Shown in pieces: positions 12,916 through 23,485 of a stretch of 35,214 nucleotides of DNA. The translations under genes and the position numbers were made by a program. The notes under the pieces were generated by a model. That model made no database searches. It was not told the origin of the DNA and was given only the letters and a program-made list of their open reading frames with translations. Numbering within the stretch: the first letter of the stretch is position 1; every line of letters starts with the position of its first letter. This DNA comes from Candidatus Vecturithrix granuli (GTDB lineage: Bacteria; Moduliflexota; Moduliflexia; Moduliflexales; Moduliflexaceae), in NCBI GenBank assembly GCA_000739535.1, contig DF820470.1:83049-118262 (forward strand). The letters are read 5' to 3'.

Positions 12916-12974
12916 CAATTATCATTTCTTTCTACATTGGTTTTATAGTAATATTCAGCGGCGTTGACATCAGT

Positions 12975-13005
12975 AAAAACGGGGGTCGCCTTGAAGGCCA
13001 CCCCC
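12975..13005 (-). terminator. Intrinsic terminator of the small gene at 13050
   Basis: In the minus-strand transcript, GGGGGTGGCCTT pairs with AAGGCGACCCCC around a short loop, followed by GTTTTTAC. This is a clear rho-independent terminator 45 bases after the stop codon. Confidence 0.75.
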
Positions 13006-13049
13006 GCCAGGGACACTACCCATAAATACTCCCGTACTTCTTTCTGTTT

Positions 13050-13418
13050 TTACGCCGCGATTTTTTCGATAGAGAGAATATTTTCTAGTTCAATATGGCA
13101 CTGTTCGAGATATGGAAGTTGAACTGAGAGGATCTCGGAGTCCGGGATTCCGGCGATCTGCGTTCCATCCTGTAGCTCAAACAAAAAGTGCTTCAGCTTT
13201 CGTGAGACCATCCAGCCCGGATCATTCACGCGTTCGATTTTCACAATGTACGTGACAGCCAGATTCATTGGCATTCCGTTCAAATGTGAGGGTTTCACAT
13301 GAATCTCTGTTTGTGTAAATCGCGCCTGAAAGTGTGTTTCCCCCTTGAGAAAAAATTTGAAATAACCATCCGATTGTTGAACTCTTTGCCCAATTGCCCC
13401 ACCTTTATTGTTCCCCAT
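13050..13418 (-). CDS. Small protein of unknown function (122 residues) behind a sigma-54 promoter-like site
   Basis: I do not recognise the family. The protein is polar and probably cytoplasmic, with no signal or membrane segment. It alternates short beta-like stretches: GYFKFFLKGETHFQARF, LAVTYIVKIERV, LKHFLFELQDGTQIAGIP and CHIELENILSIEKI. The start is ATG 13416-13418 with a strong AAGGAGGAG. The open frame extends to 13478 without support. It has its own terminator and lies behind a near-consensus sigma-54 element at 13487-13501. It is next to the sigma-54 activator gene on the same strand, so it is a plausible target or effector of that system. Confidence 0.75.
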   Translation of the reverse strand: MGNNKGGAIGQRVQQSDGYFKFFLKGETHFQARFTQTEIHVKPSHLNGMPMNLAVTYIVKIERVNDPGWMVSRKLKHFLFELQDGTQIAGIPDSEILSVQLPYLEQCHIELENILSIEKIAA

Positions 13419-13486
13419 CAGGAATCTCCTCCTTTTAATATATGTTATCTGAGTGTTCCCAGGTGAACTCGTCAACAAACGTTATT

Positions 13487-13501
13487 GCAATCTGAATGCC
13501 A
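13487..13501 (-). promoter_or_regulatory. Sigma-54 (-24/-12) promoter candidate
   Basis: The minus strand reads TGGCATTCAGATTGC, against the RpoN consensus TGGCACG-N4-TTGC: GG-N10-GC spacing is exact and TGGCA and TTGC are complete. Transcription would begin near 13475, giving a leader of about 57 bases before ATG 13418. An RpoN activator gene lies directly upstream on the same strand. Confidence 0.7.
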
Positions 13502-13559
13502 AAGCGGAAATAGGCAATAGACATTGTTGCAGAACTACAAGGACTGAGTATACATGCCA

Positions 13560-13675
13560 GAACTTAACAGCCCTGCCCGCAAGCGCGGGGAAATGTTCAA
13601 TGGAACTCTGCGCTGCTCACGTTAGACTTCCCCGCGCTTGCAGGGGGATTGAGGGGGGTAGTGCATAACGTGAGA
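13560..13675. repeat. Dispersed C/G-rich repeat block (inverted copy of 1110-1350)
   Basis: It contains ACAGCCCTGCC, a CGCAAGCGCGGGG core and, near 13640-13665, a GGGGGATTGAGGGGGGTAGTG stretch that is the reverse complement of the start of the first copy. It may lie within the enhancer zone of the sigma-54 site. Confidence 0.7.
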
Positions 13676-13720
13676 TTGTAAAATGGGGTTTTCAATTGTA
13701 AACTCAATCCTTTGTATATT

Positions 13721-13807
13721 GAAACTACATGGATTTCATGTAGGGAGGATGAAAGCTGAGCTTCATTAGGAAACTCAATCCTTCTTAAATAAAATCTCTG
13801 TAGTTTT
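13721..13807. repeat. Degenerate copy of the ACTACAAGGATTT inverted repeat
   Basis: The arms GAAACTACATGGATTTCATG and AAATCTCTGTAGTTT, with AGGAGGAT-like and AATCCTTCTT inner parts, resemble 9147-9249 but have several mismatches. It is probably an older insertion of the same family. Confidence 0.55.
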
Positions 13808-13860
13808 TAAACGGGCAAACATAGAGAACAAGCCATTTAGACTTGACTTTCCGGATCAGC

Positions 13861-13968
13861 TTCAAGCCATTTTCTGGCTTGAAAGAGCCAGTGCTTTTGG
13901 ACAGAAGTTCTTACTGGCAAACCTTGTCCGACAGATTCTGTTAATAAGAATTTCTGTCCCAAAGCACT
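13861..13968. repeat. Hairpin plus inverted repeat abutting the activator stop codon
   Basis: A hairpin TTCAAGCCA/TGGCTTGAA covers 13861-13881. Arms 13890-13913 and 13945-13968 (AGTGCTTT, GGACAGAA, TTCTTA) pair with few mismatches. The right arm includes part of the TAG stop of the sigma-54 activator, so the gene ends inside the repeat. It could act as the transcript's 3' structure. Confidence 0.65.
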
Positions 13969-15547
13969 AGAGTACGTAATTGTTCTTTTCTTCCGGTTCA
14001 TTTTCTTCTGACAGCGGATTTGTTTTACGATAGATCTGCCAGTACCAGTCGCGTAATTCAGGGTCTACAGCCTGTTTGGTGTGGTCGAGGCCCAGCAGAT
14101 TTTTGAGGCGTCCACGCGAAGCGCCTTTGCTGTAGCCTGCTTGTTCGAGCAGCTTTACTGCTGACGCAATTTTCCCATGCGAGAGTTCCAGGGCGAATTG
14201 AATTTGTTGCCGATGATTCCGCGTGAGTTCGCTTTCATTCCGCGGATTGAGTTGTTGACGCAGATCATGAAAGGCTGAACTCTGATCCGAAGAAACAGAA
14301 ATACCCTGGGGTTGGTTGGTTTGCTGGTTGACTTTAAGATGTAAATCTTCGACCTGGATGTGATCCCGGTCGTGGATGTCACAGGAAATTAACGCGCGTT
14401 CGATCACCTGATCGAGTTCGCGGATATTTCCGGGCCAGGAATACTCCAAAAGCTTCTGTAAGGCATGGGGATCGATGCTTTTATAAAAGCTTCCTGCATG
14501 TGGAGCATTTTCAAGTAAAAAATGATCAATCAATATCATCAGATCGTTCTGACCCCTTTCACGTAACGGAGGCAGTTCGATCGGCCACCCGCTCAGGCGA
14601 TATAAGAAATCCTGCCGGAAATTTCCTTTGCTGATTTCTGCTTCCAAATTTTTCACCGTCGCACAGATAATACGAACATCAACGGGTATCGGTGAACTTG
14701 AGCCCAGCGGTGTGACCTCGCGTTCCTGAAGCACACGCAATAATTTCACCTGCATGGATACGGGCATTTCCCCGATTTCATCCAGAAACAAGGTTCCCCT
14801 ATCGGCCTGGACGATGTGCCCCGGACGGTCATGGTCAGCGCCGGAAAATGCTCCTTTTTTATATCCGAATAATTCGCTTTCGAACAGCGTTTCAGGGATA
14901 GCTGAGCAATTAATGGCAACGAACGGCCTTCTCGCTCGTTTGCCATGCACATGCAGCGCTCTGGCCACCAGTTCTTTGCCGGTGCCGGTTTCACCGGTAA
15001 TCACAATATTAGTATCGGTATCGCACAATTTATCAATATAGAGCTTGATTTCCTGGAGAGGAGAGGTTGGAGACATCACCATGCCATATTCAGCGTATAA
15101 TCGCCGCGCTTTGGCTCGTCTGGCTAAAGTCGCAATTTCTGTGCGTAATTGTTCGACGCTGCAAAAATGATAATCATCCGGGTAGTTTTCCAGCATCGAA
15201 TCCCAACGTCTGCGAATGTCAACAGATCCATGCGGCGATGCTACAAAAAAATCGATCATCGGCGATTTCGTAATTTTCTGCGTAGGCCAGGGTAATTGCT
15301 TACGCCATTCAATGGTTTCTCTCATCACGCTGCGTGGAAAGCGAGAATCTAGCAGCAGCAGGATGGGCGTTTGGGCGGTTCCATCGAATTTTGTCACGTG
15401 GTGCAAACGTTCGTGTAACTCGGTTTTGGAATCTCTGCCATTGATGACGACCGCGCGTAAACCGGTAGTTCTTTCAAAGTTCTTGATCAGAGCCGGAGGA
15501 AAGGTATTCTCCTGCTCGGCAATCCAAAAGCTATCAGCTGTTAGCAT
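13967..15547 (-). CDS. Sigma-54-dependent AAA+ transcriptional activator with degenerate receiver-like N-domain
   Basis: This 526-residue NtrC-type enhancer-binding protein remodels RpoN holoenzyme with ATP. The AAA+ domain covers about 155-400, with Walker A GETGTGKE (185-192), GAFSGA (232-237, variant of GAFTGA), Walker B LFLDE (253-257), and FRQDFLYRLSGWPIELPPLRER. The C terminus has a Fis-like helix-turn-helix (FALELSHGKIASAVKLLEQAG). Residues 1-150 are not a normal receiver but keep a receiver-like strand order (AVVIN, ILLLLD, IDFFVAS, YHFCS); I infer a pseudo-receiver. ATG 15545-15547 follows GAGAGGAGG; the gene overlaps the upstream response regulator by 14 bases, so they are coupled. 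Likely targets are the sites at 13487 and 22320. Confidence 0.9.
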   Translation of the reverse strand: MLTADSFWIAEQENTFPPALIKNFERTTGLRAVVINGRDSKTELHERLHHVTKFDGTAQTPILLLLDSRFPRSVMRETIEWRKQLPWPTQKITKSPMIDFFVASPHGSVDIRRRWDSMLENYPDDYHFCSVEQLRTEIATLARRAKARRLYAEYGMVMSPTSPLQEIKLYIDKLCDTDTNIVITGETGTGKELVARALHVHGKRARRPFVAINCSAIPETLFESELFGYKKGAFSGADHDRPGHIVQADRGTLFLDEIGEMPVSMQVKLLRVLQEREVTPLGSSSPIPVDVRIICATVKNLEAEISKGNFRQDFLYRLSGWPIELPPLRERGQNDLMILIDHFLLENAPHAGSFYKSIDPHALQKLLEYSWPGNIRELDQVIERALISCDIHDRDHIQVEDLHLKVNQQTNQPQGISVSSDQSSAFHDLRQQLNPRNESELTRNHRQQIQFALELSHGKIASAVKLLEQAGYSKGASRGRLKNLLGLDHTKQAVDPELRDWYWQIYRKTNPLSEENEPEEKNNYVL

Positions 15548-16169
15548 ATTTTTGCAGCCTCCTCTCAATCGTGATCACCTCTTTAATCTCCCAGTTCAAA
15601 AATTCAGCCGCTTTCTCAATATTTTGTTTATGGAGTTGCAATGCTCTGTGCACAATTTTCTCTTCAACCGCTCGAATGGCTTGCTCGCTCGGTGCTTGTA
15701 ACATCCGTACCGTCTGAAATTCCTGAATACATTGCAGTAAACGTCGTCCCAACACCTGCGGATTTTTATATTCTTCGGTTGTGATGAAATCACTGACACC
15801 GGCCTGAACCATTTCCTGTTTCTGCATGTAATCCTCTTTGCCGGTAAACCCAATAACAGGGGGGATGTCAACGCCATACGTTTCACAGGTTTCGGCAAGT
15901 TTGCGGATAATCAAGACGCCCTCCATCGCCGGATTTTCCCCAAGTACTTTATGAGGCGGGAAAAAATTCATATCAACGAGCACGATATCCGGGAGAACTT
16001 CACCCCGATTCATGCGTGTAGCAATAAGCTGATGGGCTTCATGCCAATCTCGCGCCCATAAGACCATAAATCCCTGGTTTTCAAGGATCTTCCGAAAGAA
16101 AATTCGATTATCACGTTCATCATCTATCACAAATATTTCAAGTTTTTTAGGAAAAATATTGTTCATCAT
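15534..16169 (-). CDS. Response regulator: receiver domain plus Fis-type C-terminal domain
   Basis: This protein has 211 residues. Receiver residues 10-140 have the acidic pair Asp16/Asp17 (FVIDDERD), phosphoacceptor Asp66 (IVLVDMNFF) and Thr109 (IGFTGKED). The usual KP motif is replaced by TTEEYKNP, perhaps with Lys135 in place. Residues 160-207 resemble the Fis/NtrC DNA-binding helix bundle (AVEEKIVHRALQLH, NIEKAAEFLNWEIKEV, IERRLQKY), but there is no AAA+ domain. It is encoded just before the AAA+ activator, which itself lacks a true receiver. The pair looks like a split NtrC, with the input and a DNA-binding domain here and the motor in the next gene. The start follows AGAGGTGAG. The likely phosphodonor is the kinase-like fusion protein upstream. 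Confidence 0.85.
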   Translation of the reverse strand: MMNNIFPKKLEIFVIDDERDNRIFFRKILENQGFMVLWARDWHEAHQLIATRMNRGEVLPDIVLVDMNFFPPHKVLGENPAMEGVLIIRKLAETCETYGVDIPPVIGFTGKEDYMQKQEMVQAGVSDFITTEEYKNPQVLGRRLLQCIQEFQTVRMLQAPSEQAIRAVEEKIVHRALQLHKQNIEKAAEFLNWEIKEVITIERRLQKYANS

Positions 16170-16223
16170 CTCACCTCTAGGCTATTAAAAACTATACGTG
16201 ATGTGCGACTTTCTGCTCCAAGA

Positions 16224-16305
16224 ACCCACCCCTAACCCCTCCCAGGAGGGGAATTGACCCTCAGAGGAGCACACATTCCCCTCCTGGGAGGGGTTAGGGG
16301 TGGGT
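16224..16305. repeat. Inverted repeat with C-rich and G-rich arms inside the signalling operon
   Basis: Arms 16224-16252 and 16276-16305 (ACCCACCCCTAACCCCTCCC and its complement) are almost perfect. It sits in the 187-base gap between the kinase-like gene and the response regulator. The hairpin may attenuate or process the shared transcript. A similar element is at 2384-2492. Confidence 0.75.
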
Positions 16306-16356
16306 AAAAAGGTCCATTTTGCAACGCATCTTCAAAAAATAACACATCGTGCACTA

Positions 16357-19200
16357 TTACTGAAATCTCAACCATATAGGAAAAAAGAGCACGAGTGCTT
16401 GATCTTCGATAGTATTTTCAATTCCAAGATGAATCAAACGCGTTCGAAAGGGAAGTAAATTCGCCTGATCCGGCATACCTCCTTTTCCGGAAAGCGTCAT
16501 CAATATGGTGTGACGCTCTTGTGCCAATCGAAATGTGGCGGTTATGGGATATGCAGATTCTTCCGGCAGCATAAACTCTTTGATCCCCCACATCAGCGCA
16601 TCTTTTACCAATGGATGTGAGGCCGGGTGAGACAGTCTATATGCGGGAAGATCGCCCGGAATGATCTGTATGACATCTTCTGGCATCAACGCAGTTTGTC
16701 CATAAACTCTCTCTGTCTGAAAATCTTTCCAGATTTCTTTTCTGATTTCCAATATCATATTCAGCAGCGATTGCTGGGATAATTGATCAAGCACATCGGA
16801 AATTTCCTGTAAAGCATAATGATCCTGTTTCTGAATCAGTTTGACAAGCTCATCGAAAAGAGCAAGGTGTGTTGCTCTCCTTTCAGCAAGGTGTAACATG
16901 GTGTATTCTCGTTCGAGATCGGTCCGGAGCTTTTGTAGATGCGATTTGGCGGCTTCAGGAGTCGAAGAGCTATTCAGAGTCTTCAAGAGCCGCCCCACAA
17001 AATCGGTACAGATCCCTTTTTGTTTCCGCTTCTCATATTCAAGTTCTTGTAAAGCCGTACATAATTTCAAGGCCGTGTGGACAGGGAATGCTTTTGAAAG
17101 CCAGACAGGAATCTCAAACACACAGGTGGTTCCAAATCCGATTTTGCTTGAAATTTGAAGCGTGATATAATACTGTTCAAGACGTTCTTGATGATCGCGC
17201 CAGCCGCGAGAACTTTGTTGAATCTGTTCAAACAGTTCCGGAGTAAGCGTCCCGTTATCTTGCAACCAGACTTTCACCGTTTGTCCATTGGGAACAAACG
17301 GAGGATCAAGAAAAATATCTATGCGTACGCCATGAGCCGATTGGGCATGTCGCACGCTATTATTCAGCAGTTCCTCAAGTCCATCCTGCAATACGGCTTC
17401 AATTGTTTGCGGCCTTTCGGCGACCTCGCCGGCTCGATAAAGAATCGGGAATTTTTCTACCGGATAATAATCCGTCTGTTGCGGAAGAAGATTATGTACA
17501 TAGGGTACGACGGCATAGAAGGGATTTGTGGAGCGTTGTTCGTATTCCCGAACTGTTTTATCAACGATGTTCCGAAGGGGTTGTGTGGTTCGTCTATTAA
17601 TCAGTTGTTTGAACTGTGTATAACGATTTTCAAGCTGGGTGCGTTTCAACGCAAACGTTTCAGCAGGCGTTTTTTCGATGTCTTGAAAGGCTTCAAGGAC
17701 TTGTGCTTTGACATCTCCAAGATGGCGCAGCACGACATCGAGCCAAAATTCCTCGTGCTGAGGGGAGGACTGTTTATTCAATGCTTTGACGGCTTCGATA
17801 AGATGATCAAAGGCTTGTGAGAATTTTTGGATATACGGCGCGGTTTTCAGTGGATGTTGAGGATCTTGAAATCGTAACATCTCCACATCTCTTTTTACAT
17901 CGTGAATGATGTGTTCGAATTCTCGCGTCAAAAAGAGATGTTCAGCGCCATCACCTGGGGTAAACTGTTTTTGATCAATTTGCATCAAGTGTTGAATAAG
18001 ATGGGTCGCTTCATATTCAAAAAACGCGACAATCCGGCCGACTGCCAATAAATTCTCATGCGATCGTGAGTGCGTTTTTCTCCAAAGAAGCACCCTTCCG
18101 GCATCAGGATCGTTCATGAAAGTTTCTACAGCGGATTTCCGAAATGTATGGATTTCAAGCGAGACTCTCTGACCAACCGACGTTTTGTCACCATGAAACA
18201 GGGCATGACAGGAATGGAGAAACAGTTGCCCTTCGCGGATGTGAGGGCCAAAAAACATCATCAAAAACTCTGTGGATCTGAGGTCATCCAGCGTCAGAGC
18301 ATCTCTGAACAGGGCGTCAATTTTGATCACGGTCGGATATTGGGCCATCGCCCTACTGCTCAGGACAGCCGATGATGGCGTTGGCAGCGTTCCTTTATGT
18401 AATTCAACCGAAAGGATGGCCGTATGATCGGTGCGTCTGTTCATTCGGATAATCCCGGAAAGCTCTTGCGCTTCCTGATCCATGCCTTCCGAAAGAAGAT
18501 ATATCGGCGTATTTTCAGTAAATATGCCTCGTGATGGTCTGTCCGTTTGTAACCAGAAGATGCGCTGATCATCCGTTGGGATCGCCTTTCCCACCACCCA
18601 GAGATCCTCGGAATTCTGCTGATAGACAGCAACAAGTTTTTCAAGCGCCTCGACCAGACACGGTCCCTGATACCATGATGACGTTTGCAGGATATTCAAC
18701 CAGTACCCACAGGAATTTTTTCCGATCGGAATACAGGCTTCAACGCGCAGATTTGACAGAGAGTAGTGTTCTTCCAGAATATGGGAGAATTCTTGAGAAG
18801 CGTCAGAAAACCAGTCAATCTGTTCCTGATTTGGATCATTCATCCGATTCACAAGCACCAGATAACGGTTTACTCCGAGCCAGCATAATTTCTCAAGCAT
18901 TTCAAAGAACTGCGGGTGTCTGCGGAAACGCTGCTTCTGACAAAGGGAAGTCATTTTCTCCGGAGTGACGACAATCATTCCTGCCCGTTCAGGCATCTCC
19001 AGGTTGAGAGACTCTAATTTTGAATAGATCGTCAGCACATAGCCATTCAATCTCGGATAATTATCAAGCGCCATTCTGTATCGCAGCGGTTCTCTGCGTT
19101 GGGCAGAATATCTTTCTCCGAGAAGGCGACAGATCGTCTTCTTTCCTGTTTGCAACTGTCCCAGCACGGCAACACTTTTCAAGGCCTCTATGCTATTCAT
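16357..19200 (-). CDS. EF-Tu-like pseudo-GTPase fused to histidine-kinase-type (GHKL) ATPase
   Basis: This protein has 947 residues. Residues 1-210 look like a worn EF-Tu G domain: P-loop GQLQTGKKT (14-22), G4-like LVLVNRMND, and NILQTSSWYQGPCLVEALE, matching the WYQGP-LLEAL end of EF-Tu/CysN G domains. The DxxG switch II is missing and G4 Asp is Asn, so GTP hydrolysis is doubtful. Residues 210-390 resemble beta-barrel domains 2/3. A helical part has IIHDVKRDVEML near 431, a possible phosphorylated His box. A GHKL ATPase follows at about 600-715: N-box EELLNNSVRHA, G1 DNGTL, G2 GFGTTCVFEIP. The last 100 residues look like a second, worn GHKL fold. ATG 19198-19200 overlaps the previous gene's stop; an in-frame TTG lies at 19227. 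Confidence 0.7.
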   Translation of the reverse strand: MNSIEALKSVAVLGQLQTGKKTICRLLGERYSAQRREPLRYRMALDNYPRLNGYVLTIYSKLESLNLEMPERAGMIVVTPEKMTSLCQKQRFRRHPQFFEMLEKLCWLGVNRYLVLVNRMNDPNQEQIDWFSDASQEFSHILEEHYSLSNLRVEACIPIGKNSCGYWLNILQTSSWYQGPCLVEALEKLVAVYQQNSEDLWVVGKAIPTDDQRIFWLQTDRPSRGIFTENTPIYLLSEGMDQEAQELSGIIRMNRRTDHTAILSVELHKGTLPTPSSAVLSSRAMAQYPTVIKIDALFRDALTLDDLRSTEFLMMFFGPHIREGQLFLHSCHALFHGDKTSVGQRVSLEIHTFRKSAVETFMNDPDAGRVLLWRKTHSRSHENLLAVGRIVAFFEYEATHLIQHLMQIDQKQFTPGDGAEHLFLTREFEHIIHDVKRDVEMLRFQDPQHPLKTAPYIQKFSQAFDHLIEAVKALNKQSSPQHEEFWLDVVLRHLGDVKAQVLEAFQDIEKTPAETFALKRTQLENRYTQFKQLINRRTTQPLRNIVDKTVREYEQRSTNPFYAVVPYVHNLLPQQTDYYPVEKFPILYRAGEVAERPQTIEAVLQDGLEELLNNSVRHAQSAHGVRIDIFLDPPFVPNGQTVKVWLQDNGTLTPELFEQIQQSSRGWRDHQERLEQYYITLQISSKIGFGTTCVFEIPVWLSKAFPVHTALKLCTALQELEYEKRKQKGICTDFVGRLLKTLNSSSTPEAAKSHLQKLRTDLEREYTMLHLAERRATHLALFDELVKLIQKQDHYALQEISDVLDQLSQQSLLNMILEIRKEIWKDFQTERVYGQTALMPEDVIQIIPGDLPAYRLSHPASHPLVKDALMWGIKEFMLPEESAYPITATFRLAQERHTILMTLSGKGGMPDQANLLPFRTRLIHLGIENTIEDQALVLFFPIWLRFQ

Positions 19201-20959
19201 AGGTTTGATATTTTGGAAACAATTCAATGGAATAGGCCCCTGGACCGGGCTTCATTTTCTTGACCGTATGATACAACAAGCTCATCTCTTCTGAGGTCGG
19301 ATGAGGCATGACAATATGCCACCGATCCTGTACGCTGGTAAAAATATCAGGGAGTGTATGCAGTTTTGCCAGGTGATAAAATCGCTGGAATGGTGTGAGG
19401 ATTTCCTCTTTCTCAGGAAAGGTCTCTGGTGTGTATGTCAGCATCATTTCACACCGTTCAATAAAATATAACCGTAATACCCGGCCGCCACAAAATGATG
19501 TATTTTGTCGTAAGACAACATCCTGGACATCAGCATCAATGATTCCATTGACCCCCGGATAATCAACAGGAAAACCCAGTAATAATTCCACTTCAACGAC
19601 ATCGCCAATCTCTTTCTCATCTTCACGTAATTGTTCCTCGCGCGGACATACTGACAATACCAGCGCATCTCCTTTTTTTTGTCCATATAAATAGACAAGC
19701 CATTGCTGCCCCTCAGCAATTTTGCGGCTATAGATCGGGACAAAGAGTTCGGCCATCACCACATTACCGCTTATCACGGCGTCGCCAGCGTTGGTAATGA
19801 TGCATCCTTTACGAAAATACAATGGATATTTTTCCGGAGAATATTTTGTCTTCCCGTGGGGATGGAAAGTCAGCCCGATAATATGGCCTGCTTCGAACTG
19901 CTGATCCTGAGCCGGAGATTCAAGTGGGATTTTCCCGATCCAGGGCAGTTGGGCTTTCTGGTCGCGCTGGCGAACATGCTTCACTCGTCCTCTGAGTTTC
20001 TCTGTATCATGGAATTCTTTGGCAGGGTCGCAGAGCGGAGAAATCTGAATTTCTTGATCTTTAGAGAGCGTCCCACGAATAATCCGACCAGTGACAATAC
20101 ATGGAGAACCCGGCACTCGTTTCAAATACATCTCTTCCACCGGAATAAGTAACGGCCCTTTTGAAGGTTGCAGAGCGGGAATTTGAGCGATCTGCTCGAC
20201 AACGGTAGGGCCTTGATACCAACTCATCGGGTGCTCAGATGGGACAGCGTGAATGACATTCATATCCGACCGCGCTTCAACCTGGATGCTCGTAGGGATC
20301 ACGTGAATCGCCTGTTGGGGAAGGTCTGAAAACCACGCTAAAAATGGCCGGAGTTCTTCAACAGACAGTTCATACACCAGTTGGTCGTACTGAACCAGAT
20401 CCATTTTACTGATGACCACAATCAATTGTTGGAAACCATACGTACGAACCAGAATAGGGTAAAAACAGATATTCCAAAAGCGTGAGTTTCTGACATGTTG
20501 TACAAGGGTTCCCTGGTTGTCGTAATAACGGTTAATCTCCTGGATCATATCTAAAAGAGGTTCTAAATCATTGGCCGCCAGCACCAGAACCGCAGCTTGC
20601 GCCTGAAAAATGCCTGTCGTTGCATTCGAAATGAATTTTTCGTGTCCCGGAACATCAATAAACAGATACGTTTTTTCACCAATCGTGCATTCTATGTATG
20701 TTGGGACAATGCTTGCGCCTTCGAATTTTCTCTTTCCCTCCTGACTCAAATGCCCCTTGCGTTCATCCTGAATTTTATCAAAAAGATAGGTATAGATGCG
20801 ATCTTTGCGATACCAATCGGGCTTTTCCTGTTCCCAGGCGGCGATTTGCTTCCAATAGTTCGGATCGTTCAGATGATGAAGGATAATATATCCGAATAAC
20901 GTGGATTTTCCAAAATCAGCCGGCCCCATTGAGGTAATTCTGATCGGAATATTCTGCAT
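19193..20959 (-). CDS. EF-Tu/EF-1A-like translational-type GTPase
   Basis: This protein has 588 residues and a complete-looking G domain: G1 GPADFGKST (12-20), G3 DVPGHEKF (102-109), G4 SKMD (184-187), G5-like IPTSIQ, and MSWYQGPTVVEQI closing the domain. The segment FDKIQDERKGHL resembles the EF-1A switch I helix (DKLKEERERGIT), but the switch Thr is not evident. Barrel domains follow (VEEMYLKRVPGSPCIVTGRI and GHIIGLTFHPHGKT), then about 150 unassigned residues. It is longer than EF-Tu (about 394) and is not in a ribosomal operon, so I infer a signalling role. Start ATG 20957-20959, five bases after the upstream stop with GGGGG upstream; it overlaps the next gene by eight bases. CysN or SelB are alternatives; the context fits neither. 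Confidence 0.8.
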   Translation of the reverse strand: MQNIPIRITSMGPADFGKSTLFGYIILHHLNDPNYWKQIAAWEQEKPDWYRKDRIYTYLFDKIQDERKGHLSQEGKRKFEGASIVPTYIECTIGEKTYLFIDVPGHEKFISNATTGIFQAQAAVLVLAANDLEPLLDMIQEINRYYDNQGTLVQHVRNSRFWNICFYPILVRTYGFQQLIVVISKMDLVQYDQLVYELSVEELRPFLAWFSDLPQQAIHVIPTSIQVEARSDMNVIHAVPSEHPMSWYQGPTVVEQIAQIPALQPSKGPLLIPVEEMYLKRVPGSPCIVTGRIIRGTLSKDQEIQISPLCDPAKEFHDTEKLRGRVKHVRQRDQKAQLPWIGKIPLESPAQDQQFEAGHIIGLTFHPHGKTKYSPEKYPLYFRKGCIITNAGDAVISGNVVMAELFVPIYSRKIAEGQQWLVYLYGQKKGDALVLSVCPREEQLREDEKEIGDVVEVELLLGFPVDYPGVNGIIDADVQDVVLRQNTSFCGGRVLRLYFIERCEMMLTYTPETFPEKEEILTPFQRFYHLAKLHTLPDIFTSVQDRWHIVMPHPTSEEMSLLYHTVKKMKPGPGAYSIELFPKYQTYE

Positions 20960-20964
20960 CTTTT

Positions 20965-22281
20965 TTACCCCCTTCCATCCCTGATAAATTGTAATACCTC
21001 GTGTGAACACACATATTGACCTAACATACGAACGGGAGCCACGGCTTCCCACTTGCCATCTCCTCTTTTGATAATGTTGATCGTATCATGTTTGAAACTC
21101 CGTTCAATCCAGGTTTGTTCCATCCGTTGCACCCACCCTTTCAGGCAATAACGTTTTGAGCCTTCACCAGGATGTAACAGATCTTGCACAATCGCAGCCG
21201 CCAGCGCGCCTGATCCTGAATTACTGCATAGAGGAGAGCTTGGATATTCAGGCTCAATGGTCATAAAATTCACTTGTGCTGAATCGGCCTGGCAGCGATC
21301 TTCTACAAACGTCCACCCTCCAGGATATTTTGTAATGAACGGTTCACCCCCAAAATAAGCCGTTTCTTCCCACTGATCGCGGAGAACCCCAAGATTTGTC
21401 AGCAGATCAAGACTTGTATCCGGATAATCAAATAATTCAGACAACCGATACGCCTGAAGGCATTCATCTGAGACTGTTTCTACGGCTTCCATGAAATAGT
21501 CTGAAGCAAAATCCCCGATTGGGACAGCATAATGTAATTCCCCGACAAATACCGGAATATACGGAATAATCAAGAATTTGCTTTCATAATGCATTTTTGA
21601 CCCGGATTGCTCTGGAATACAGGCAATATCGATCTGGTAATCCTGTTCAAGTGGTTTCTCTGAAAAAAGCAGGTGGAGTTTTCGCAAAATTCTCTCCCTT
21701 TCTTCTTCTAGAAAATAACCCTGCAACACATCCTGAGCCTGTTCGTAAACACAGAGAGGCGCCTGAAAATCTTCACGATGGCAGAGAACGCGAAAAAATC
21801 CATCGGGTTCTGCCATGGCCTCAAACGTTTCCCAACTTCCCTCTGCTTGACACCAGTCATGCGACCATGAAGCAAAGCGCCAGCAGAAGTCACTCTGGGG
21901 ATAGGCTTGCTGCATATACTTTGCTGCAACCATAACCCCGCCAATGCTTACAGAAGCCTCCTTCCAATTATCTCCCTGTCCCGTGATATCCGAAAACCAA
22001 AAGCGGAGAATAATATGGTCATCTGGCAGAGAATTGACATCTATTTTCTCGAAATTGCACGAAATATCTGAACATATCGGAGTATGATTTTTCAGATATT
22101 CCGGAGCAAAGAGCATAATGATTTGGTTCACTCGCAAAATGTGTTCAGGTAATCCTTGTAAAATTTCATAATAACAGATCTCGTCGCGGCAAAGCTGATT
22201 CATATCAATAATCGCGAATGTTGGTCCACAAATAGCTCCTATATGTACAGTGAGCTGGTTAGATGAGTTATGTGGATTCAC
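20965..22281 (-). CDS. Degenerate DapF-like (diaminopimelate epimerase fold) protein
   Basis: This 438-residue protein is not a clear family member but has landmarks of the DapF/PhzF fold in order: GAICGPTFAIID (15-26, cf. GLGNDFVVVD), ILRFWFSDITG...VSIGGVMVAAKYM (91-123, cf. RIFNADGSE..MCGNGARCFARY), QVNFMTIE (336-343, cf. NVEFVEV) and SNSGSGALAAAIV (353-365, cf. ACGTGACAAVV). At the two catalytic cysteine sites it has VSIGG and SNSGS, so epimerase chemistry is unlikely; a binding or sensing role is my inference. An extra segment (about 130-210) and several Cys/Trp residues are unusual. It starts at GTG 22279-22281 after TGGAGG and leads the cluster, behind a sigma-54-like promoter. Confidence 0.55.
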   Translation of the reverse strand: MNPHNSSNQLTVHIGAICGPTFAIIDMNQLCRDEICYYEILQGLPEHILRVNQIIMLFAPEYLKNHTPICSDISCNFEKIDVNSLPDDHIILRFWFSDITGQGDNWKEASVSIGGVMVAAKYMQQAYPQSDFCWRFASWSHDWCQAEGSWETFEAMAEPDGFFRVLCHREDFQAPLCVYEQAQDVLQGYFLEEERERILRKLHLLFSEKPLEQDYQIDIACIPEQSGSKMHYESKFLIIPYIPVFVGELHYAVPIGDFASDYFMEAVETVSDECLQAYRLSELFDYPDTSLDLLTNLGVLRDQWEETAYFGGEPFITKYPGGWTFVEDRCQADSAQVNFMTIEPEYPSSPLCSNSGSGALAAAIVQDLLHPGEGSKRYCLKGWVQRMEQTWIERSFKHDTINIIKRGDGKWEAVAPVRMLGQYVCSHEVLQFIRDGRG

Positions 22282-22319
22282 GGTTGTTGCCTCCAGTTCT
22301 CCACGTCTTTATGATGTTA

Positions 22320-22334
22320 GCATATTTTATGCCA
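22320..22334 (-). promoter_or_regulatory. Sigma-54 (-24/-12) promoter candidate before the DapF-like gene
   Basis: The minus strand reads TGGCATAAAATATGC: GG-N10-GC spacing is exact and TGGCA is complete, with TATGC in place of TTTGC. Transcription would start near 22308, giving a leader of about 27 bases with TGGAGG before the GTG start. The cluster itself encodes an RpoN activator, so autoregulation is plausible. Confidence 0.55.
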
Positions 22335-22406
22335 GATGATTCTGGCTCTCTCCCAATATGACACACCCTCATTTTTAGTGGAAATGTTCTTCGGATTCAG
22401 ATCACA

Positions 22407-22450
22407 CTAAGTCAAAAGAAAATGACCTGTCAAGCCAAAAAATGACTTAG
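22407..22450. promoter_or_regulatory. Candidate upstream activator (enhancer) site, CTAAGTCA / TGACTTAG
   Basis: Perfect 8-base inverted arms (22407-22414, 22443-22450) are separated by 28 bases, with a further GTCA/TGAC pair inside. The centre is about 100 bases upstream of the -24 element, a usual distance for NtrC-type activators. The IS982 element begins only 46 bases beyond it. Function is inferred from position only. Confidence 0.4.
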
Positions 22451-22495: not shown

Positions 22496-23485
22496 ACCTA
22501 ACTTGCGACCTATAACACTGACTGAATACCAAAGGCTAAGATGAACAAGACCACGTTCAGTTCAAATCCTTTAGGAGTGACTGCATGAATGTTTTTCGGG
22601 AAAAACCGGGTAATGTTACTGAACGAGCTTTCCACGTGTTTGCGCATCACCTGTTTATACCGTTCATCATGGTAACTGATCTGCCGTTTCGAATGCCGTT
22701 TGCAGCTCGGTTGCCTATCAATCCTGGTGGCCTCGCGCAACAGATCTTCATGCGTATAATCGTTGTCCATCTTATCAGAGAAACACGTTGCTCCAGCGGG
22801 GAGGTCGAAATGCAAGGCTTTATATACACTGACGTCACTCTCTGCGCCTGGACGGAGGATGAATTCGACCGGCTCGCCGCTCGCTGTTACGATCATATAC
22901 ACGCGCAACCCATAGAAATAGCGGCGTTTACTGGCAATATAGCCTCGATAGGCTTCTCCGCCATACAGGCGGCAGCGATCGATACGGATATTGTCACACA
23001 CCGGCACCGGAAAACTATCGACACCATACATCTGCTCTAGATTGCTCAGCTTAAAGGTGCTTGCCAGGCTCTGAAACAGGGCGCCCCAGAAGAATTCTGG
23101 AATGGCATGAAGGCGTCGGTTCAGCCGACTTTCACTGAGCATCCCCGGAATATAGCCATATTCCTTCAGAAATTTCCGAGCATTCTCAAGATGTCCACCG
23201 TACAAGTACGCCGCTGTCAACCCCGCGGTTATCACTTCGGCATCAGTCATCATGACCTGCGGGCCTTCTCTGTGGTTCATGGCGGTCAACAACTCATCAC
23301 ACAACACAAAAATCATGGTGATCACATCACGCATTTCAATGGCGTCTTCTCGGATAGTAGTAGTGTTCATGGCGGTCTCCTCCTCCTTTTTTTGGCGTTC
23401 CTCATTGGTTCAATGTCCAACATAATCATCAGTTTACACCGTCACTCTCCTCAAGACAAGAAAAATAATAAGTCGCAAGTTAGGT
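22496..23485. mobile_element. IS982-family insertion sequence, 990 bp, with 8-bp target duplication
   Basis: Terminal inverted repeats begin ACCTAACTTGCGAC on both ends (22496-22509 and the complement at 23472-23485) and agree again in the following TAT. Both sides are flanked by TATTATTA (22488-22495 and 23486-23493), an 8-bp target duplication in the range known for IS982. The single transposase gene is intact, so the element looks recent and possibly active. Confidence 0.85.
22510..23370 (-). CDS. IS982-family transposase
   Basis: This 286-residue DDE transposase catalyses cut-and-paste movement of its element. Family features: first Asp (118) in GVDSFPVPVCDNIRI, ASKRRYFYGLRVYMIVTASG, a second Asp in the FSDKMDNDYTHEDLL region, and Glu in MRKHVESSFSNITRFFP. 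Length matches complete IS982 transposases. ATG 23368-23370 follows GGAGGAGGAG. It lies wholly within the terminal inverted repeats, and the 3' end falls at the left repeat. Confidence 0.9.
   Translation of the reverse strand: MNTTTIREDAIEMRDVITMIFVLCDELLTAMNHREGPQVMMTDAEVITAGLTAAYLYGGHLENARKFLKEYGYIPGMLSESRLNRRLHAIPEFFWGALFQSLASTFKLSNLEQMYGVDSFPVPVCDNIRIDRCRLYGGEAYRGYIASKRRYFYGLRVYMIVTASGEPVEFILRPGAESDVSVYKALHFDLPAGATCFSDKMDNDYTHEDLLREATRIDRQPSCKRHSKRQISYHDERYKQVMRKHVESSFSNITRFFPKNIHAVTPKGFELNVVLFILAFGIQSVL

Follow-up and report, generated by a model that had tools for sequence, protein, structure and literature searches.

The logic of two-component signalling and of sigma-54 transcription is known, and the systems closest to the locus analysed here share parts of it. 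In NtrC-family regulation, an AAA+ activator with a GAFTGA-like loop and a Fis-like HTH acts with RpoN at a consensus promoter. The present locus has such an activator (P0005, with the loop GAFSGA) and such a promoter, in a genome with RpoN, but its receiver is carried on a separate receiver-Fis protein (P0004), and the N-terminal region of the activator has no assignment. NarL/LiaS-type sensor histidine kinases share with P0003 a GHKL ATPase with an N-box, DNG and GFGT, whereas P0003 has a degenerate EF-1A-like domain and no recognised standard sensor, and the spacing from its candidate His to the N-box is odd. EF-1A, EF-Tu and CysN share with P0002 the GTP_EFTU fold, the order of motifs G1-G4, the start of domain II and the WYxGP motif; unlike them, P0002 has GPADFGKST rather than GHVDHGKST at G1, an insert before G4 and a C-terminal part of ~250 aa that matches no recognised family. 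HEF_HK/Response_reg_2 systems (PMC8011034) also pair a GHKL protein with a receiver, and the HEF_HK model falls on P0003 residues 436-481 below threshold (E 0.15). This match is not significant, however, no restriction-modification genes were recognised here, and the P0004 receiver fits the ordinary Response_reg model. In DO-GTPase/GAP1 conflict systems, too, a gene cassette encodes paired GTPases of the TRAFAC type, but nothing here matches DO-GTPase or GAP1 and, as far as the excerpts of PMC7159879 go, the GTPases there are not wired to sigma-54. What appears to be new in the present locus, and is seen once, is a translation-factor-class GTPase with a degenerate copy, fused to a kinase-type ATPase, ahead of known regulatory parts. 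Our preferred reading, which we hold tentatively and at somewhat less than even confidence, is a cytoplasmic circuit of the two-component/sigma-54 type in which parts of translation-factor-like GTPases make up the sensor.

The window, that is, the whole stretch of DNA analysed, comprises 35,214 nucleotides of Candidatus Vecturithrix granuli (contig positions 83049-118262), from an assembly of 8.38 Mb in 21 contigs that is 94% complete and 10.75% contaminated. P0001-P0005 and a small gene are numbered in window coordinates, and all lie on the minus strand. Five genes follow one another on the same strand (13967-22281), as a preliminary description of this sequence had claimed; they overlap or are spaced by a few nucleotides, except for one wider gap. 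P0001 and P0002 are 5 nt apart; P0002 and P0003 overlap by 8 nt, counted from the P0003 ATG at 19200; P0003 and P0004 are separated by 187 nt with a large palindrome inside (CCCACCCCTAACCCCTCCCAGGAGGGG, 16224-16306, minus strand); and P0004 and P0005 overlap by 14 nt, counted from the P0005 ATG at 15547. The small gene (13050-13418) lies 548 bp beyond the end of P0005. With codon usage trained on neighbouring genes, the coding signal for every gene was found only in its own frame. A second large intergenic palindrome, with a CCCCGCGCTTGCGGG-type repeat, lies at ~13575-13660, and both palindromes are probably repeated extragenic elements.

P0002 (19193-20959, minus strand) encodes an EF-1A-like GTPase of 588 aa. 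Its G domain matches GTP_EFTU (PF00009) over the Pfam cut-off, with 7.1e-14, and the protein matches archaeal EF-1A structures with 5e-23. All of the motifs G1-G4 are present in the alignment, with G1 (20900-20926), G2 and G4 (SKMD) partly altered and G3 reading DVPGHE; the insert ahead of G4 comprises ~20 residues. Scores against named members of the class fall far short: the NCBIfam EF-1-alpha model gives 4.9e-32 and 90 bits against a cut-off of 540, and the EF-Tu, CysN and SelB models give 44.9, 57 and 37.6 bits against cut-offs of 522, 590 and 242. The EF-Tu of this genome sits elsewhere (C15:93090). We therefore regard P0002 as a GTPase of the translation-factor class that is no known member of it. 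The intact-looking EF-Tu/EF-1A-like GTPase of the preliminary description is confirmed at that level, far under the EF-1-alpha cut-off, and it is neither the EF-Tu of the genome nor an ordinary CysN or SelB.

The resemblance of the P0002 G domain and domain II to EF-1A and CysN would also be expected if P0002 were a divergent metabolic or translation-related GTPase (a CysN- or EF-1A-like side branch), with P0001 an enzyme and sigma-54 merely controlling the operon, and the DapF-like motifs in P0001 described below would fit as well. This explanation appears quite improbable to us in view of how far P0002 lies below the CysN and EF-1A cut-offs. Moreover, judged by reading, no ORF in the window is CysD-like and no PAPS genes are among the neighbours of P0002; the catalytic cysteines are missing from P0001; and a broken GTPase copy is joined to a kinase-type ATPase in P0003.

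P0003 (16357-19200, minus strand) is 947 aa long from the ATG at 19200, or 956 aa from a TTG at 19227. Its layout is one of degenerate EF-1A-like domains, a long helical region, an HK-type GHKL ATPase and a C-terminal region of no known kind, and the EF-Tu-like/GHKL fusion proposed earlier is upheld, with a weak match at the front and a solid one for the ATPase. Its first ~200 residues match EF-1A/CysN models with 0.001-0.002 over residues 100-209, a Gemmatirosa CysN with 0.008, and P0002 with an E of 5e-4, which relates this front to P0002. The front retains the P-loop (GQLQTGKKT), but DxxG is gone and NKxD has become NRMND, so GTPase activity is doubtful. The GHKL ATPase (residues 590-722 when counted from the TTG; 17062-17460, minus strand) has the motifs LLNNSVRH (N-box), DNG and GFGT and reaches z = 16.7 against the ATPase domain of a NarL-type sensor kinase. 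The HATPase_c match (E 0.0098, 16.8 bits) misses the curated cut-off of 26.4, and the match of the LiaS model is likewise under its cut-off. In a check for a DHp domain, no HisKA model matched. The candidates for the phosphoacceptor are H442, which with D443 has the look of an H-box and stands 180 residues before the N-box, and H502, 120 residues before it; their region forms long helices in a low-confidence AlphaFold model. Without an alignment, AlphaFold gave a pLDDT of 36 for P0001 and of 45 for P0003 residues 425-725. A second GHKL domain, suspected by eye at P0003 residues 855-956, was dropped (z = 0.3). Even taken alone, the fusion of a degenerate translation-factor GTPase to an ATPase of the histidine-kinase type is unusual.

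Could the GHKL domain of P0003, instead of acting as a kinase for P0004, work as the ATP switch of a multi-protein NTPase machine that includes P0002, following a logic like that of GTPase-centred conflict systems? The GTPase-like proteins are paired, the phosphoacceptor His of P0003 is ambiguous and the P0004 receiver is without the conserved Lys, all of which would suit such a machine. On the other hand, the P0003 ATPase is closest to those of NarL/LiaS-type sensor kinases, and DO-GTPase, GAP1 and defence models do not match P0001-P0003; we consider this explanation unlikely. A reading of the locus as a defence system was rejected, as PADLOC matches P0005 only via its AAA/HTH part.

P0001 (20965-22281, minus strand; 438 aa from a GTG start at 22281) is an orphan that possibly has a DapF/PhzF fold without the catalytic cysteines. 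It has no match in Pfam, NCBIfam, PHROG, PADLOC or PDB, and its comparisons with DapF profiles from relatives of the genome, by hhalign, hmmsearch and glocal alignment, were no better than those of shuffles. Standard DapF motifs, tried after the profile tests came out null, gave five motif blocks in order that outscored all 1000 shuffles and each of 63 control ORFs (best of 64); the margin is narrow (8.7, with the best control at 6.6), and the scores of genuine DapF proteins are much higher. Both positions of the DapF catalytic Cys are Ser in the P0001 alignment, and DapF-type catalysis is therefore unlikely. The DapF-like label given to this protein earlier thus survives as a plausible guess at the fold, based on the motif blocks, but not as a family assignment, given the lack of a Pfam match, profile alignments at shuffle level and the change from Cys to Ser. 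Elsewhere, the genome has a normal DapF (C21:709541) and a divergent second DapF homologue of 296 aa (C5:66734-67561).

The two regulator genes are of more familiar kinds. P0004 (15534-16169, minus strand) encodes a receiver and a Fis-like HTH in 211 aa (Response_reg 5.6e-11, HTH_8 0.023, z = 6.3); the Response_reg score of 43 bits is over the cut-off of 30.2. It keeps the acidic pair DD, the Thr and D66 (15972-15974), and the conserved Lys is replaced in the alignment (ITTEE). P0005 (13967-15547, minus strand, ATG at 15547) is a sigma-54 AAA+ activator with a Fis-like C-terminus that matches Sigma54_activat with 1.4e-65 (220.6 bits, cut-off 20.2). Its Walker A (GETGTGKE) and Walker B motifs are intact, and it contains LFLDEIGE and GAFSGA (14837-14854), a variant of GAFTGA. 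The first ~140 residues of P0005 reach z = 1.4 against a receiver profile, and a pseudo-receiver considered for this region was set aside, the similarity not being established. Both the receiver-Fis protein, albeit with a weak Fis-like end, and the RpoN AAA+ activator had been recognised correctly in the preliminary description.

An exact sigma-54 promoter (TGGCATTCAGATTGCA, 13486-13501, minus strand), conforming to TGGCAY-N5-TTGCW, is located 465 bp past P0005, with the ATG of the small gene 68 nt further downstream. An approximate sigma-54-like site (TGGCATAAAATATGCT, 22319-22334, minus strand), 37 nt ahead of the P0001 start codon, keeps GG-N10-GC and agrees at 9 of 12 positions, a level at which (at least 9/12) matches turn up ~11 times in the window. 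These two sites had been taken for promoters that bracket the genes; the first is exact, but the second is only a 9/12 match, and because the exact promoter faces the small gene and not the five genes, the sites do not enclose a single operon. We read the promoter at 13486 as the output side and the site at 22319 as possible self-control. Some 160 bp upstream of the latter, where an enhancer might lie, stands an IS982 element that is outside the system (22496-23485, minus strand; NF033520 4.6e-43; terminal repeats; 8-bp TSD TATTATTA) and may have changed the control of the operon. A search for an enhancer common to both promoters turned up no signal over shuffles strong enough to claim.

The genome has one rpoN and 48 sigma-54 activator matches, and exact TGGCAY-N5-TTGCW sites number 59 genome-wide, compared to 9 for the reversed control pattern. 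Based on distances computed over 43 listed activators, 15 of the 59 exact sites, including that of the P0005 locus, have an activator within 1 kb, where 0.8 are expected (P ~4e-15), and 25 have one within 5 kb (3.3 expected). Since exact sites cluster beside activators genome-wide, local wiring of P0005 to the promoter is credible, and this genome seems, as a rule, to keep activator and promoter together in local cassettes.

That local-target activators are common here also favours the strongest rival to our reading, namely that P0001-P0003 are a separate unit with another role and that P0004-P0005 with the small gene make up an ordinary local sigma-54 circuit that answers to a different kinase. 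The 187-nt gap with its large palindrome and the overlap of P0004 with P0005 point in the same direction. All of these genes share a strand, however, the gap contains no strong sigma-70-like promoter match, and the gene for the HK-type ATPase lies beside the receiver gene, an arrangement that usually marks a cognate pair. We consider a split into separate units somewhat unlikely.

The exact promoter drives a single gene (13050-13418, minus strand; 122 aa, ATG at 13418), closed by a strong intrinsic terminator (12970-13010, minus strand; a GC hairpin followed by TTTTT, from sequence and fold). By homologue comparison, relatives of the 122-aa protein occur in the same genome, its family and its order (best 2.3e-8). 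The domain that makes up this protein corresponds, with 24-28% identity in four sequences, to the C-terminal part of a family of divergent, ~360-residue sigma-54 AAA+ proteins (L125:5233-6318, L126:4801-5877, L118:1447-2526 and L120:1450-2526), in which no DNA-binding HTH was recognised. Judged by these alignments, the 122-aa protein is a stand-alone form of this beta-rich C-terminal domain, which is unnamed in the libraries searched. Because the domain is elsewhere fused to sigma-54 AAA+ proteins, the small gene has a link to sigma-54 biology that does not depend on its promoter. We also note that two RelA/SpoT-like genes (L126:1385-4691) adjoin the L126 gene for a divergent sigma-54 AAA+ protein and that a gene for a TIR-like protein adjoins the one on L125.

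Searches for relatives of the first three proteins came back empty: none for P0003 in 385 genomes, none for P0001 in 289 and, beyond generic EF-1A/CysN G-domain matches, none for P0002 in 385, 195 and 338 genomes, although an empty search run without a positive control shows little. In the genome set, three other genomes belong to the same taxonomic order as this one. When 85,000 species genomes were scanned with P0002 patterns, no relative appeared either; such scans need near-exact short peptides and would miss distant relatives. The aids for the pattern searches (A1-A4) are partly artificial alignments that keep chosen P0002 motifs (GPxDxGKST, NATTG) and are not data. Among viral contigs, the P0002 patterns yielded only a phage-borne CysN-like protein (L127) and the P0003 pattern nothing, while tblastn against plasmids returned only EF-1A, CysN and ordinary receivers. 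Two candidates for P0003 relatives were rejected: the best-looking match, from Gemmatirosa, is an ordinary CysN, and L036 is an ordinary NarL-type kinase, which we used as a yardstick. As no relatives of P0001-P0003 were found, the gene linkage has been seen once.

In the two-component/sigma-54 circuit that we prefer, P0001, the intact GTPase P0002 and P0003 would form the sensing module, the degenerate EF-1A-like front of P0003 would be the docking half, and the state of the GTPase would control the attached kinase-type ATPase. P0003 would in turn alter the phosphorylation of Asp66 in P0004; this receiver protein and the AAA+ motor P0005 would together open the exact promoter for the 122-aa beta-domain protein; the operon may control itself via the weaker site at 22319. 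We infer every arrow ahead of the promoter from the established roles of these families. Several observations argue for the circuit: the tight coupling of P0001-P0002-P0003 and of P0004-P0005; the presence, beside the P0003 HK-type ATPase, of a receiver and of an activator whose motifs are intact; the relationship between P0002 and the P0003 front; the presence of RpoN, the 48 activator matches, the excess of exact sites (59 versus 9) and the 15 of these within 1 kb of an activator; and the tie of the small output gene to sigma-54 AAA+ proteins through its domain. The circuit is weakened by a linkage seen only once, by the palindrome gap between the input and regulator genes, by the ambiguous His of P0003, the P0004 receiver without Lys and the z of 1.4 for a receiver in P0005, and by pLDDT values of 36 and 45. 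Of the signalling chain first proposed for this locus, three members (kinase-type ATPase, receiver, activator) hold up, and the genome-wide statistics have strengthened the case for a sigma-54 output, but the signal, the coupling of GTPase to kinase and the phosphotransfer are hypothetical. The same His, Lys and receiver features and the 187-nt palindrome gap weigh on this chain, and no second copy turned up to suggest that the genes form a set. That the translation-factor-like GTPase specifically reports translation or GTP state to the broken GTPase-kinase hybrid, and from there through a phosphorelay to the sigma-54 promoter, we regard as improbable; if true, it would give two-component signalling a kind of sensory input not known before.

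In a small literature search, we found neither a route from a GTPase to sigma-54 nor a GTPase accompanied by a degenerate copy fused to a kinase-type ATPase, and no pathway is known to us by which GTP or translation state would reach sigma-54 transcription. The placement of activators beside promoters means that sigma-54 targets in this genome could be predicted from sequence. Should the coupling at this locus prove real, a translation-factor-class GTPase would either be or feed a sensor kinase, connecting GTP or translation state to sigma-54 transcription.
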